From Syncephalis fuscata (taxonomy: Eukaryota > Zoopagomycota > Zoopagomycetes > Zoopagales > Piptocephalidaceae), in assembly GCA_025786725.1 (NCBI GenBank), contig JAHLTZ010000169.1, positions 1-20,090 of the forward strand: a stretch of DNA of 20,090 nucleotides, read 5' to 3'. Position numbers and translations under genes: made by a program. Shown one piece after another: positions 1 to 14,823 of this stretch. Each line of letters starts with the position of its first letter. Within the stretch, counting starts at the first letter, position 1. The notes beneath the pieces are model-generated. The model had not been told where the DNA came from and made no database searches. It saw only the letters and a list, made by a program, of their open reading frames with translations.

Positions 1-1155
1 TTCATTGCTGTAGTCTTCTTCTGTTTGGTGTTGACTTGTCATCTCTACGTCTTCTCCGTCTTCTACCTCTACCTCTCCCTCTTCTCTCTCTCCCATTGCT
101 GGCTCATCTTCCAGCGCCATTCCTTCTTCCATGTCACACACCATTGTCTCTACTGCTCCTTCTTCCGGCTTTTTGGCCGCTGCCGCTACTATGGCTAGCT
201 GCTTCGCTGTCTTCTCTAGCTCTTCCGTTTGGCGTCGCGTTTTCACACCCCCGCTAGCTAGATTTATTCCTGCTACTGGTCTTGTCTTTCTTTGTCTTCC
301 CTTCTTTGCTGGTGGTGGTAACTCTTGTTCTTCTTGTTGTTCTTGTTCTTCTTCTACTACTACTACTGCTACTGCTACCTCTCCTTCTTCTCTTTCTTCT
401 TCCTCCACCATTTCATTTTCTTCGTCTTCGTTCACATCTGTTGCTTCTGGCGTTTGCTGTTCTTCTTGTTGTTTTTCGTGTTCAGCTGTCACTGTATTGT
501 TGGCTGGTGCTGTGTTTCTCTGCTGCCAGCTTCCCGATGTACAGTCAACTGCGATATGTCCCACCATGTGGCACCTAAAGCACGCGTCTCTTCTTCCGAT
601 CTTCAGCATCATCGCCCCCACTCTTATTCTTGTCGGTATTTTCTTCTCGTCTGTTTCGACTTTACACACTACTATTGGAGACTCTAATACGCAGTCATAG
701 AATCTCTTTTCTAGTCTGTGTATCGCCCAGACTTTGCTGTTTGGCCCCAATTCTTCTCTTAATTTTTGTGCCACGTGCTCCAACTCTGTTGCCGCGTCCA
801 CCCCTATCACTTTCAGTGGTATTGGTGCTGGCCCTTCATAGCTTCTTACTTTGATGTGCTCTTCTCCAATATAAAAGCCTTCTCTCACCATCAAGTTTAC
901 TTGTTGTTTAGAGAATAAGCTAAACACATATTCCCCTGCTGCATTATCAATACTGTACTTGATTTTTTTTCCTTCTTTTAATTTCTTAACAATCGCCTGC
1001 GCGACTTCTGCTATTCTGTTAACATTTGTCATCTGTACCCCGATACAATGCTTCAATACTCTTTCCTTTCTTAATTTCTCCGCTTCGCTTTCCATCGTTT
1101 TCACAATGTTGTTTGTTACTTTTTCTGAGTAAAGCTGACGCTGCTGGGTTGTCAT
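1..1155 (-). CDS. Partial CCHC zinc-knuckle protein, probable Gag/ORF1 of a retroelement
   Basis: The frame is open from an ATG at 1155 to the window edge, 385 codons without a stop, so the protein is cut off by the window. Residues 1-60 are Lys/Glu-rich and helical-looking. Residues about 65-165 look like a compact alpha/beta (RRM-like) module. A single zinc knuckle of the form C-X2-C-X4-H-X4-C lies at C192, C195, H200 and C205. After it comes a long Glu/Gln-rich low-complexity stretch (about 220-265) and a Lys/Arg-rich patch. One CCHC knuckle behind an RRM-like module is typical of nucleic-acid-binding ORF1/Gag proteins of non-LTR retrotransposons; a host zinc-knuckle protein is the alternative. 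The reverse transcriptase expected next would lie outside the window. Base composition is clearly more GC-rich than the flanking array, which fits a mobile origin. The start codon is 45 bp from the divergent ATG at 1201. The coding frame is seen directly; the retroelement assignment is inferred. Confidence 0.6.
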   Translation of the reverse strand, partial: MTTQQRQLYSEKVTNNIVKTMESEAEKLRKERVLKHCIGVQMTNVNRIAEVAQAIVKKLKEGKKIKYSIDNAAGEYVFSLFSKQQVNLMVREGFYIGEEHIKVRSYEGPAPIPLKVIGVDAATELEHVAQKLREELGPNSKVWAIHRLEKRFYDCVLESPIVVCKVETDEKKIPTRIRVGAMMLKIGRRDACFRCHMVGHIAVDCTSGSWQQRNTAPANNTVTAEHEKQQEEQQTPEATDVNEDEENEMVEEEEREEGEVAVAVVVVEEEQEQQEEQELPPPAKKGRQRKTRPVAGINLASGGVKTRRQTEELEKTAKQLAIVAAAAKKPEEGAVETMVCDMEEGMALEDEPAMGEREEGEVEVEDGEDVEMTSQHQTEEDYSNE

Positions 1156-1200
1156 TTTTCTTGATGTCTTTTTCTTCTTTTTTCCTTTGAAAAAATATAA

Positions 1201-3310
1201 ATGGAAAGAGTCGTGGAATTGTATATTAGCTGATTATACACTAATTATATCCATGTATTGCATGTGCATTAATAATTTGATATTAACAGAAAGTAAGTTA
1301 TATTTTATATTAGTTATTTACTTACTAATCATATTCATGTACTATGTATAAACAAATATTAATAGAATGTAAGTAGCATTATATATTAATTGATTACTGG
1401 TCAACTATATACCGTGTATTGTCTGTATTAATAATTTACTATTAATAGGCAGTAGGTGATATTGTACATTAATTAAATATGCGCTAATTATGTGTCGTAT
1501 GTTGTGTGCATTTATAATTTAATATTAATAGAGAGTAAGTTGTATTGTATATAAATTGACTATAAATTGACTATACTATTTACTGGTGGTATTAATTATT
1601 TGATATTAATAGAGAGTAAGTGGCACTGTATATTAATTGACTATACATTAATAATGCTATTTATTGCTAATATCAATTATTTAATGTTAATAGATTGTAA
1701 GTAATATTGTATATTAATTGGATATACATTAACTATGCTATTTACTGATTGTATTGATTATTTAATATTAATAGGGAGTAAGTGGTGTTGTATATTAACT
1801 AACTATACATTAACTATACTATTTACTGATTGTATCAATTATTTAATATTAATAGACAGTAAGCTATATTGTGTATTAACTGCCTATACATTAACCATGC
1901 TATTTACCTATGATATTGCTTATTTAATATTAATAGGTCGTAAGTGATGTTTTATATTAATTAGCTATACATTAACTATGCTATTTACTGATTGTATTGC
2001 TTATTTAATATTAATAGCTGGTAAGCTATCTTGTATATTAATCGGCTATATATTAACTATGCTATTTACTAATTATATTAATTATTTAATATTAATAGTG
2101 GGTAAGTTGTATTGTATATTAATTTACTATACATTAACCATGCTATTTATTGATTGTACCAATTATTTAATATTACCAGCTTGTAAGTGATGTCTTATAT
2201 TATTTAATTATACATTAACTATGCTATTTACTGATGGTATTGCTTATTTAATATTAATAGGTCGTAAGTGATGTCTTATATTATCTGATTATACATTAAC
2301 TATGTTATTTACTGATGGTATTAATTATTCAATATTAATAGGTTGTAAGTAATATTGTATATCAATGATATTTACTAATAATACTAATTATTTAATATTA
2401 ATAGTCTGTAAGTGATATTGCATATTAATTTACTATACATTAATAATGCTATTTACTAATTGTACTAATTTTTAATATTACCAGCTTGTAAGTGATGTCT
2501 TGTATTATCTGATTATACATTAACTATGCTATTTACTGACGATATTGCTTATTTAATATTAATAGGTCGTAAGTGGTATTATATTATCTGATTATACATT
2601 AACTATGTTATTTACTGATGGTATTAATTATTTAACATTAATAGGTTGTAAGTTGCATGATATATTATCTGATTATACATTAACTATGCTATTTATTGAT
2701 TGTACCAATTGTTTAATAATAATAGTTGGTAAGTTATATTGTATATTAATTGGATATACATTAACTATATACTATGTATTGTGTATCAACAACTTAATAT
2801 TAATAGAATGTAAGCTGTACTGCATATTAATTGATTACTCACTAATTATATGTTATTTATTGGTTGCACTAATTATTTAATATAATAGGCGGTGGTAAGT
2901 GGTATTTTATATTAATTGGCTATGCATTAATTACATGCTGTCTATTATGTGTATTAATATATTAATATTAATAGTTCGTAAGTTGTACTGTGTATTAACT
3001 GACTTATACATTAACTATACGACATGTAATATCTTTATTTATAAATGCAGCCAACCCACAATCATAAAAGCATTAACATTGGTAGTGCAATCGGATCATT
3101 ATTCCAATACACTTTAGGTATATATTCGGTGAAATGCAAGACTATTTGACAACTACGCCGTCCAGTCTATTTATATATCAAGTTTTGGCCAATGCTCCGG
3201 TTTATCCAGTCTCTAATCAATGGAATCATTATTTTGCCAACAACTTTGCATTTAGTTGTTCCTATTCAACTGTGCAAGTTTATAGTAATAAACTTATGGT
3301 TCCATCTTAA
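1201..3310 (+). CDS. Candidate secreted protein whose signal sequence is encoded by 22 one-codon microexons
   Basis: Proposed model of 25 exons. Exon 1 is ATG at 1201 to 1209 (or 1212). Then come 22 microexons at 1290, 1366, 1449, 1532, 1613, 1694, 1775, 1856, 1937, 2018, 2099, 2180, 2261, 2342, 2405, 2485, 2566, 2645, 2726, 2807, 2889 (six bases) and 2975. The last two exons are 3051-3117 and 3183-3310 (TAA). Every microexon lies between an AG and GTAAGT (18 of 22), GTAAGC (3) or GTAGGT (1). Thirteen of the 21 introns between them are exactly 78 nt. All microexons are phase 0. The codons give KNARR, then IGTVLWLVVSLVVL, then NAVF: a basic n-region and a hydrophobic core, like a signal peptide or anchor. 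The downstream exons join in frame across a 65-nt GTATAT...CAAG intron and end in a Tyr/Asn-rich stretch. Total about 90 residues, no recognised family. The weakest point is the first donor (GTCGTG or GTGGAA). Without RNA data this is a strong hypothesis, not a fact. Confidence 0.55.
1210..3050 (+). repeat. Tandem array of about 81-bp units, about 23 copies
   Basis: The unit runs roughly GTAAGT-N5-TGTATATTAATTG, then CTATACATTAACTATGCTATTTACTGATTG, then TTATTTAATATTAATAG and three variable bases. Spacing between successive GTAAGT sites is 81 bp for most units, with a range of 63-85. The array is very AT-rich. The outer copies (before about 1530 and after about 2760) are more diverged than the central ones, as expected for an array that grows by internal unequal exchange. 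A 3-unit block is itself duplicated (see findings). Potential branch-point sequences (TTAAC, ACTGAT) recur in each unit about 27-45 nt before the AG. Reading frames through the array encode 27-residue repeats only because 81 is a multiple of three; they are interrupted and not proposed as genes. Confidence 0.97.
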
Positions 3311-5084: not shown

Positions 5085-5741
5085 ATGCAAGTGTTACACT
5101 TTATGTTTATTGCAGTATGGTGGCTGTTTTTAACCACAAACGAAGGACTGGCTCATGAAAATGAAAACACTGTCGATTTAATGAGCATTCCATTAAATGA
5201 AAAATCTACAACTACGGCAGAACCACACACTGCTTCCAATGCCACCACGGCTACAACTATGGCTGCACCACACAATGCTACCAATGTTGCTAATACTACT
5301 ATGGCCATCGTAGCTACCGCTAATAATACTAAAAGTATCATTAACACCAATACTAAACCAGCAGCTACTAGTATCAATGGCGGTAGTGCAACAATAGCCG
5401 TTAGCAATAACACAGCACTTGCAGCCAATACTACAAGCAAAGTTGGACAAGTTGCTATAGGTAATAGCTCTGTTAGTAATAGATCTAGTAGTCATAATAC
5501 AGATGAGCAATTCCTATTTCCTCTACCAACTCTGACTGCAGCTGATACCAGTCCAGCAAGTGCACCTGACACCAAAAATCAAACAGACCACAAATCAATA
5601 CCAACAAGTCGTAATGCTACACGTAGTCGTATACGTAACAATCGACAAGACTTGAATGATGCCAATAAATTTATGACTTATTGGTTTACTTGTTTAATGG
5701 CTGTATTAACCTCTAGTGCAGTTATATATTGGCATAAATAA
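5085..5741 (+). CDS. Secreted, N-glycosylation-rich mucin-like surface protein
   Basis: A 218-residue intronless protein. Residues 1-24 form a signal peptide (hydrophobic MFIAVWWLFL core, probable cleavage after GLA). The body (about 30-180) is low-complexity Thr/Ser/Asn/Ala with many N-X-S/T sequons (repeated NAT, NNT, NTT), as in heavily glycosylated wall or surface proteins. A short basic segment (about 175-192) is followed by a hydrophobic C-terminal segment (about 197-216) ending in HK. That end could be a single-pass anchor or a GPI-attachment signal. No catalytic domain is seen, and low complexity prevents a family assignment. The ATG follows an A-rich leader. The stop is only 51 bp from that of the convergent gene at 5793. 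The role as a cell-surface or wall protein is inferred from composition. Confidence 0.75.
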   Translation: MQVLHFMFIAVWWLFLTTNEGLAHENENTVDLMSIPLNEKSTTTAEPHTASNATTATTMAAPHNATNVANTTMAIVATANNTKSIINTNTKPAATSINGGSATIAVSNNTALAANTTSKVGQVAIGNSSVSNRSSSHNTDEQFLFPLPTLTAADTSPASAPDTKNQTDHKSIPTSRNATRSRIRNNRQDLNDANKFMTYWFTCLMAVLTSSAVIYWHK

Positions 5742-14643: not shown

Positions 14644-14823
14644 ACTGTAGGCGATGGCGGCAATGACTCACATTGACCTATAGGTCAATCACCAAATCTT
14701 TAATAAGAAATTGCTTTATTGATATGAAAACATACGCTTCTTTCTCTTAAATAAATCGCATATTATTTTATTGTTATCAATTTTGCTATTACAGTTGCTA
14801 TTACAACAACTGCTAGGTTCAAC

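Follow-up and report, generated by a model that had tools for sequence, protein, structure and literature searches.

Can a gene carry nearly every one of its codons on an exon of its own? The question is raised by a stretch of 20,090 nucleotides (nt) from the fungus Syncephalis fuscata (Zoopagomycota, Piptocephalidaceae; contig JAHLTZ010000169.1 of assembly GCA_025786725.1, positions 1 to 20,090; hereafter the window), in which the units of a tandem array present, three bases at a time, a short sequence between an AG acceptor and a GTAAGT-like donor. A preliminary description of the window had proposed a gene of serial single-codon microexons, and comparative evidence strongly supports a predicted gene of this kind, with corrections to its frame and exons. 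The array is very probably the 3' part of a secreted-protein gene in which nearly every codon lies on its own 3-nt exon.

Microexon arrays in the window and the genome

A pattern scan of the whole window identified 22 units of the form AG-NNN(NNN)-donor at positions 1288-2983, the same count as in the preliminary description. The donor was GTAAGT in 18 units, GTAAGC in three and GTAGGT in one, and the exon was of 3 nt in 21 units and of 6 nt in one (GCGGTG). Exon-to-exon intervals of 60-80 nt, exactly 78 nt in 13 of 21, likewise matched the spacing first described, and Tandem Repeats Finder returned a period of ~81 nt across the array. Besides the array, the scan of the window gave one match, a lone 6-nt unit on the minus strand at 14679.

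The array had been taken for a single gene, a view which did not hold. A two-unit pattern was found 2897 times (1232 + 1665) in the S. fuscata assembly (28.95 Mb, 299 contigs), compared with four times (2 + 2) for the reversed pattern, which excludes chance. The 24 array loci fetched, a non-random sample, held 18.1 pairs each on average, from which approximately 160 arrays were estimated genome-wide. Exons of 3, 4, 5 and 6 nt preceding a 3-nt unit numbered 2897, 22, 3 and 84 respectively across the genome, and 19 of the 22 four-nt matches arose from an AG inside a 6-nt exon already counted. In 25 array loci, 517 of 523 gaps from TAATAG to GTAAGT or GTAAGC measured exactly 3 nt, the remainder being 2 nt (n = 4), 4 nt (n = 1) and 6 nt (n = 1), while at locus L103 62 of 63 exons were of 3 nt though 1-9 nt had been permitted in calling. 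Repetition of this kind might also be expected of a non-coding satellite in which the unit resembles an intron by accident and the triplet is only a variable spot, since the units are ~81-nt tandem repeats and the introns are alike across loci; the coding content of the triplets bears on this explanation.

Gene plan and predicted products

The fetched array loci were found to share a plan of exon 1, array, last exon with an early stop and 3' untranslated region (3'UTR). Exon 1 codes for MKLSIAVVCTIVVALVANTAVVDAKPALVRR or a close variant, consisting of a signal peptide (recognised by eye) and a short propeptide ending in RR, and stops one base into the next codon; it is followed by ~27-70 one-codon phase-1 exons and, in most models, by a last exon with TAA or another stop in its first bases or first few codons (the ends of the L034, L090 and L097 models are uncertain). 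As exon 1 ends one base into a codon and the last exon stops early, the triplets are read in phase 1. Each exon therefore supplies bases 2 and 3 of one codon together with base 1 of the following codon, instead of one whole codon in phase 0 as had been proposed.

Phase-1 translation of the window exons gives KCKKNWNSPVACRFSCRFECGVPNPQS*. After RR, the same phase gives GLEECWACMDECTTIYTTAECRKNNYCAKQCRK at L036, GSYEECKACMVVCKDRGELSKEQCQGKCYNQCKADNPQP at L039 and GDPAQCAACVENCKRRTGLDWGKCRNGSCRTIC at L099, while the 70 microexons of L103 yield a protein of ~75 residues, helical by eye, with the runs SFRPSCSEDIQKL and QADKLHDELLVKLNKFLNEYIK when stops were allowed in calling. The 6-nt exon was unit 3 in 12 of 15 models and stood at units 2 and 4 in two more; L098 had none. 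Models were built with a chaining script into which 18 loci were entered; L033 and L037 yielded no model and those of L035, L091, L093 and L094 ended early and were omitted, leaving 12 array models for the codon-use and cysteine tests.

The leader is predicted to be cut at RR, which presumably reflects Kex2-type processing. Syncephalis species are mycoparasites, and the leader, the cysteines and this lifestyle together suggest that the peptides, often with six cysteines and some helical by eye, would be secreted towards fungal hosts. Pfam searches of 13 intronless peptides and P0001 (14 scanned) gave nothing convincing (best E 0.0096), and Protein Data Bank sequence and fold searches gave no match. 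AlphaFold2 returned a modest helical model for the L066 mature peptide, with a mean predicted local distance difference test score (pLDDT) of 74.8 and a predicted template modelling score (pTM) of 0.46.

Some further features of these loci were observed. A TATAAATAGC box lies ~145 nt upstream of the start codon in L031, L036 and L039, and AAATAGC, which is like this shared box, occurs in L034 and L037. At L037 (C236) the signal-peptide exon is frameshifted relative to the family and the array is still open in phase 1, which is either a recent loss or an assembly error. In L102 (C24:514300-518000, minus strand) a microexon block (TTT GGA AAC or TTT GGA CTC) recurs seven times as part of a ~313-bp higher-order repeat, so that the product is probably a peptide with an internal repeat; a higher-order repeat resembling it was seen at C19:4968-8204.

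Reading frame across the introns

Codon order was analysed in 56 runs from 24 loci, called without forbidding stops and counting both of the near-duplicate arrays, C1a and C1b; of their 607 exons, 582 had 3 nt and the other 25 had 6 nt. For comparison, exon order was shuffled 500 times inside runs. No stop was found in the 576 codons of phase 1, compared with 27.2 in shuffles (standard deviation 3.9, lowest 17), and 102 cysteines were observed compared with 51.7 (standard deviation 5, highest 64). Phase 2 gave 35 stops against 38.4 when shuffled and 18 cysteines against 12.6. Phase 0 contained 2 stops in 632 codons and 2 cysteines; it is left unchanged by exon-order shuffling, which cannot therefore test it. 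An earlier sample of 215 pairs had no stops in phase 1 (10.7 expected) and 14 in phase 2 (17.6 expected). Genome-wide, 110 junctions joined T to a following RR, including 102 of T before GG (Trp), many of them in repeated blocks on C19 and C24, which leaves 8 stops; sense junctions with A, C or G before RA numbered 373, and ~138 of T before RA were expected (T being 27% of sampled last bases). At L098, TGA triplets become sense codons in phase 1.

Junction stops are avoided and cysteine is favoured in phase 1 and not in phase 2; bases ~80 nt apart are thus arranged as codons, an order across introns that is predicted by splicing plus translation and not by a satellite. The spacing pattern C..C...C was found in 6 of the 12 array models, compared with a mean of 0.19 and a highest value of 3 in 2000 order shuffles. 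The 12-model set was built with in-frame stops forbidden and is hence stop-free by construction; the test on 576 codons was not so bound.

Intronless members of the family

A search for the leader gave at least 150 matches in the genome DNA (150 of 333 candidates were scored), compared with 15 annotated proteins, so that standard gene prediction misses much of this family of secreted peptides. Examination of 47 leader loci, picked mainly for long open frames and not at random, revealed 25 that read straight to a stop and 18 with array units; three were set aside (L077 only because the filter missed it) and one was undecided. RR stood at residues 30-31 in 24 of the 25 intronless loci, and 23 had at least four cysteines after the leader. 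Exactly six cysteines were present in 14 of 25 intronless loci and 9 of 12 array models, and C..C...C in 11 of 25 intronless proteins. Codon frequencies of the array genes were correlated with those of intronless mature regions (a table omitting 5 near-identical copies of the 25) in phase 1 (r = 0.83), as opposed to phase 0 (r = 0.07) and phase 2 (r = -0.09).

The intronless gene L043 reads GAQECEDCVHICASAKDRYGNRNSADWCRSERGNCAIPCR, then TAATCGATGGTTTCAAGACATCAGC, the latter being nearly equal to the sequence after the last acceptor in array genes L038 and L095. When spliced array coding sequences were compared with intronless genes by blastn, the best alignments (best 40 matches) covered the leader end and 3' end only. 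The intronless genes may be retrocopies of array genes, or the arrays may have arisen from intronless genes. L046 (C1:523550) is intronless and carries the leader, followed by a His/Lys-rich, helical-looking product without cysteine; the leader family is thus not solely cysteine-rich.

A satellite would be a unit without coding constraint, whereas constraint was found in junction stops, cysteine content and codon use: phase 1 had none of the stops of the shuffles and twice their cysteine count, and phase 2 showed neither effect. The exons are moreover of 3 or 6 nt and rarely of 4 or 5, and the leader and cysteine pattern agree with those of the intronless genes. A satellite is for these reasons regarded as extremely unlikely.

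Splice signals and proposed mechanism

The 561 array introns had a median length of 78 nt and near-invariant ends, GTAAGT and TTAATAG, although the way in which units were called accounts for part of the donor's constancy. Only the triplet had been thought to vary from unit to unit; the splice signals are indeed the most conserved columns, but the intron bodies were found to vary as well. In the 40 nt before the acceptor, AG occurred 11 times and CT 1249 times, indicating an AG exclusion zone. Branch-like CTRAY motifs were present in 485 of 561 introns and, as they lie at several distances, do not fix the branch point. A likeness to ordinary introns, asserted in the preliminary description, was seen by eye for an ATP23-like gene in the window, whose apparent intron (11144-11071, minus strand) starts with GTAAGT and is of similar length.

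Removal by means other than the spliceosome, such as ciliate-like DNA elimination or ribosome bypassing, was also considered, as the genome contains intronless family members too. The GTAAGT...TAG borders, the AG exclusion and a length like that of an ordinary intron of the window (by eye) point instead to the spliceosome, and a match confined to the shared leader end and 3' end, as given by blastn above, also speaks against such removal, which we consider extremely unlikely.

A spliced gene of the proposed type would consist of exon 1 (5'UTR, signal peptide, propeptide to RR and one leftover base), then ~27-70 units of a ~78-nt GT-AG intron and a 3-nt (sometimes 6-nt) exon, all in phase 1, and finally a last exon that soon reaches a stop codon, followed by the 3'UTR. 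Since adjacent 5' and 3' splice sites 3 nt apart could hardly both be bound, the spliceosome would take out the introns in succession, by intron definition, and each splicing step would lengthen the upstream exon by one codon in the manner of recursive (ratchet) splicing. As the introns are homogeneous, unequal recombination should also be able to insert or delete single residues in frame.

Public gene models and points against the proposed structure

Public gene models were fitted to their loci by testing GT-AG introns of 45-419 nt. For P0011 (BDF19DRAFT_453770, 60 amino acids (aa)) at L061 one solution was obtained, namely exon 1 in phase 1, CCA, AAG and read-through to a stop; this model supports the structure in holding two consecutive 3-nt exons at the predicted sites and phase, but departs from the microexon plan at the third unit. 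The models other than P0011 do not show the train and, with the points that follow, weigh against the structure: P0002 and P0004 were fitted with other introns, P0003 with exon 1 spliced to the first unit, from which it reads on, and no fit was found for P0005 and P0013 within the locus stretch searched. Phase 0 is stop-poor in the unconstrained sample and also genome-wide (14 of 2897, being 13 TGA and 1 TAG), and this count does not decide the frame; in phase 1, ~8 junction stops remain genome-wide when the Trp junctions are subtracted. To these are added the absence of CxxCxxxC from half of the array models, a search for an array parent of L043 which found none, and chaining-script artefacts (small exons in L088 and L092, besides the uncertain model ends noted above). 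Some arrays are broken: L037 by its exon-1 frameshift, L083 and L086 by altered start regions, and six by a retroelement.

Broken arrays would also suit a different account, in which the arrays once coded and are now mostly skipped, splicing running directly from exon 1 to the last exon and leaving the triplets as relics. The frame is maintained however many 3-nt exons are omitted, and joining exon 1 to the last exon gives a near-immediate stop in several models. Relics would decay, however, whereas the 576 codons from 24 loci contain no junction stop, and donors and acceptors are nearly invariant (the donor partly via the selection of calls). Mostly skipped arrays are accordingly judged very unlikely, and translated single-codon microexons remain the preferred explanation, one in which the skipping of any unit would keep the frame.

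Features of the window and differences between copies

The window holds only the 3' part of its microexon gene (Table 1). An ATG at 1201 had been proposed to start exon 1, but it belongs to a retroelement that has inserted into an array intron; the true first exon of such genes, with the signal peptide, is known from relatives such as L031 on contig C168. A phase-0 reading from this ATG, which has the look of a signal peptide, was rejected as exon 1 of the relatives ends in phase 1, and is further disfavoured by the two phase-0 stops mentioned above and by codon use unlike that of the intronless genes. Nor does 3183-3310 form a coding exon, as had been suggested: it is 3'UTR, the stop having been reached upstream, and the position of this stop agrees with the related sequence that intronless paralogues carry after theirs. 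Searches of the window for tRNA genes and Rfam families returned nothing.

Table 1. Coordinates of features in the window, with retroelement copies at other loci
Feature	Position	Strand	Remarks
Non-LTR (long terminal repeat)-like retroelement, 5' part, inserted in array intron	1-1211	-	homology to L031 starts at 1212; C168 copy without insertion
CGTGGAATTGTATATTA, likely target-site duplication	1212-1228	+	
3' remainder of array intron hit by element	1229-1289	+	ends TTAACAG
Microexon AAA	1290-1292	+	
Microexon AAT	1366-1368	+	
Microexon GCA	1449-1451	+	donor GTAGGT
Microexon AGA	1532-1534	+	
Microexon AGA	1613-1615	+	
Microexon ATT	1694-1696	+	
Microexon GGA	1775-1777	+	
Microexon ACA	1856-1858	+	donor GTAAGC; TGG in copy L031
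Microexon GTC	1937-1939	+	
Microexon CTG	2018-2020	+	donor GTAAGC
Microexon TGG	2099-2101	+	
Microexon CTT	2180-2182	+	
Microexon GTC	2261-2263	+	
Microexon GTT	2342-2344	+	
Microexon TCT	2405-2407	+	block TCT CTT GTC GTT missing in copy L031
Microexon CTT	2485-2487	+	
Microexon GTC	2566-2568	+	
Microexon GTT	2645-2647	+	
Microexon TTG	2726-2728	+	
Microexon AAT	2807-2809	+	donor GTAAGC
Six-nt microexon GCGGTG	2889-2894	+	
Microexon TTC	2975-2977	+	final one of array
Last exon, coding start	3051-3067	+	stop TAA 3065-3067; early stop as in relatives
3'UTR to AATAAA (3287-3292)	3068-3292	+	related sequence 3' of stop in array and intronless relatives
Retroelement copies elsewhere	L031:1022; L032:2704; L033:3133; L091:1595; L094:209; C1 array near 477522	minus for L033, L091 and L094	

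The retroelement contains an open reading frame (ORF) of 385 aa (1155 to 1, minus strand) which is open at the contig edge and has a CCHC zinc-knuckle-like motif and acidic stretches, without a Pfam match; it is probably ORF1 of the element, the class of which is suggested by the knuckle (by eye) and the A-rich tails of its relatives. The same 17 bases CGTGGAATTGTATATTA recur at the end of contig C158 (L100), ahead of an element-like tail; over 1386 bp this contig shares 99.8% identity with the 5' part of L031. The 3' side of the window, in turn, is 96.4% identical to L031 over 1965 bp. From the match to L031 and the shared 17 bases and tail, the window probably represents a haplotype or copy in which the element has broken up the array, C168 being without the insertion.

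Copies of one retroelement were seen at nearly the same spot of the array unit in six arrays (Table 1), a short distance downstream of GTAAGT..ATTGTATATTA or a truncated version of it, with a tail that is TTTTA-rich and then reads GAAAAGCTTGTGAGCCCC or close to it. It is possible that this element prefers microexon-array introns as its site.

Copies differed by whole units. Between the window and L031, CTG AAC is added in one and TCT CTT GTC GTT in the other, and ACA is exchanged for TGG; L097 and L101 differ by one added unit plus changed triplets, and the two C1 copies by several units. Intron bases diverged by 3.6%, 1.4% and 1.9% in these three pairs, and changes at microexon sites numbered 12/66 (inflated by alignment around unit gains), 3/123 and 2/69, respectively. 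Gain and loss of single residues is a main mode of change in the three pairs, from which selection cannot be judged.

Elsewhere in the window, a Thr/Asn/Ala-rich frame of 218 aa (5085-5741, plus strand) has hydrophobic ends and is surface-mucin-like by eye; it had no Pfam match. A PPR protein of the window is 99% identical to an S. fuscata protein.

Comparison with known systems

Micro-exon genes (MEG) of Schistosoma mansoni have 10-20 exons of 3 (by the abstract) or 6 (by the text) to 81 bp, most of 15 bp, with introns of 0.1-5 kb, and are challenging for automatic annotation (PMC10526429). The predicted S. fuscata genes resemble them in coding for proteins with a signal peptide (by eye) mostly from very short exons of a multiple of three, and differ in that nearly all exons are of 3 nt, the introns are alike and short (~78 nt) instead of long, and the organism is a fungus. 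Aphid bicycle genes are fast-evolving candidates for secreted effectors with ~17 exons on average, the number of microexons exceeding 100 in one 'megacycle' gene (PMC9168663). Their many small internal exons of one phase, nearly all of which start at codon position 2, are like those described here; the available part of that account makes no mention of single-codon exons or of tandem like introns. No kinship to MEG or bicycle proteins was detected: a family profile search, which needs shared 5-residue words, returned 15 proteins at E<=10, all from S. fuscata.

Recursive splicing uses an adjacent acceptor and donor in turn at ratchet points (PMC8605326), and splicing of one intron after another has been proposed for a 1-nt exon of Arabidopsis APC11 (PMC4674806). 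These sites are isolated, whereas the S. fuscata arrays have 27-70 in series, each with one codon. Introners are many near-identical introns dispersed among the genes of one genome (PMC9860276); the like introns of the S. fuscata array loci examined, by contrast, stand in tandem within one gene family, each with a codon, and these loci carry or adjoin the same leader. Neither Syncephalis nor Zoopag- was matched in the main text of that article. PMC5639578 mentions a gene of a fungus in which two exons are of 3 nt, and within the open-licence literature searched no description was found of trains of single-codon exons or of such genes in Zoopagomycota.

If the proposed structure is true, the spliceosome would ratchet through up to ~70 three-nt exons, and an estimated 160 arrays would take gene fragmentation to its coding limit, with a separate exon for each residue. 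Splice sites 3 nt apart would need to be resolved dozens of times in a row, which makes minimum exon size and intron order testable in one organism. A new route of protein evolution, by insertion and deletion of whole residues, is also suggested. There is an even chance, in our estimation, that each residue acts as a recombinable cassette, unequal exchange or gene conversion in the introns inserting, deleting or swapping single residues in frame and skipping adding variants, so that the arrays would serve as a diversification engine, residue by residue, for peptides directed at fungal hosts.

One exon per residue on near-identical tandem introns is an architecture unlike that of MEG, bicycle genes and the other systems compared. 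It still seems to rely on the ordinary spliceosome, and falls within the wider theme of microexon-rich secreted proteins.
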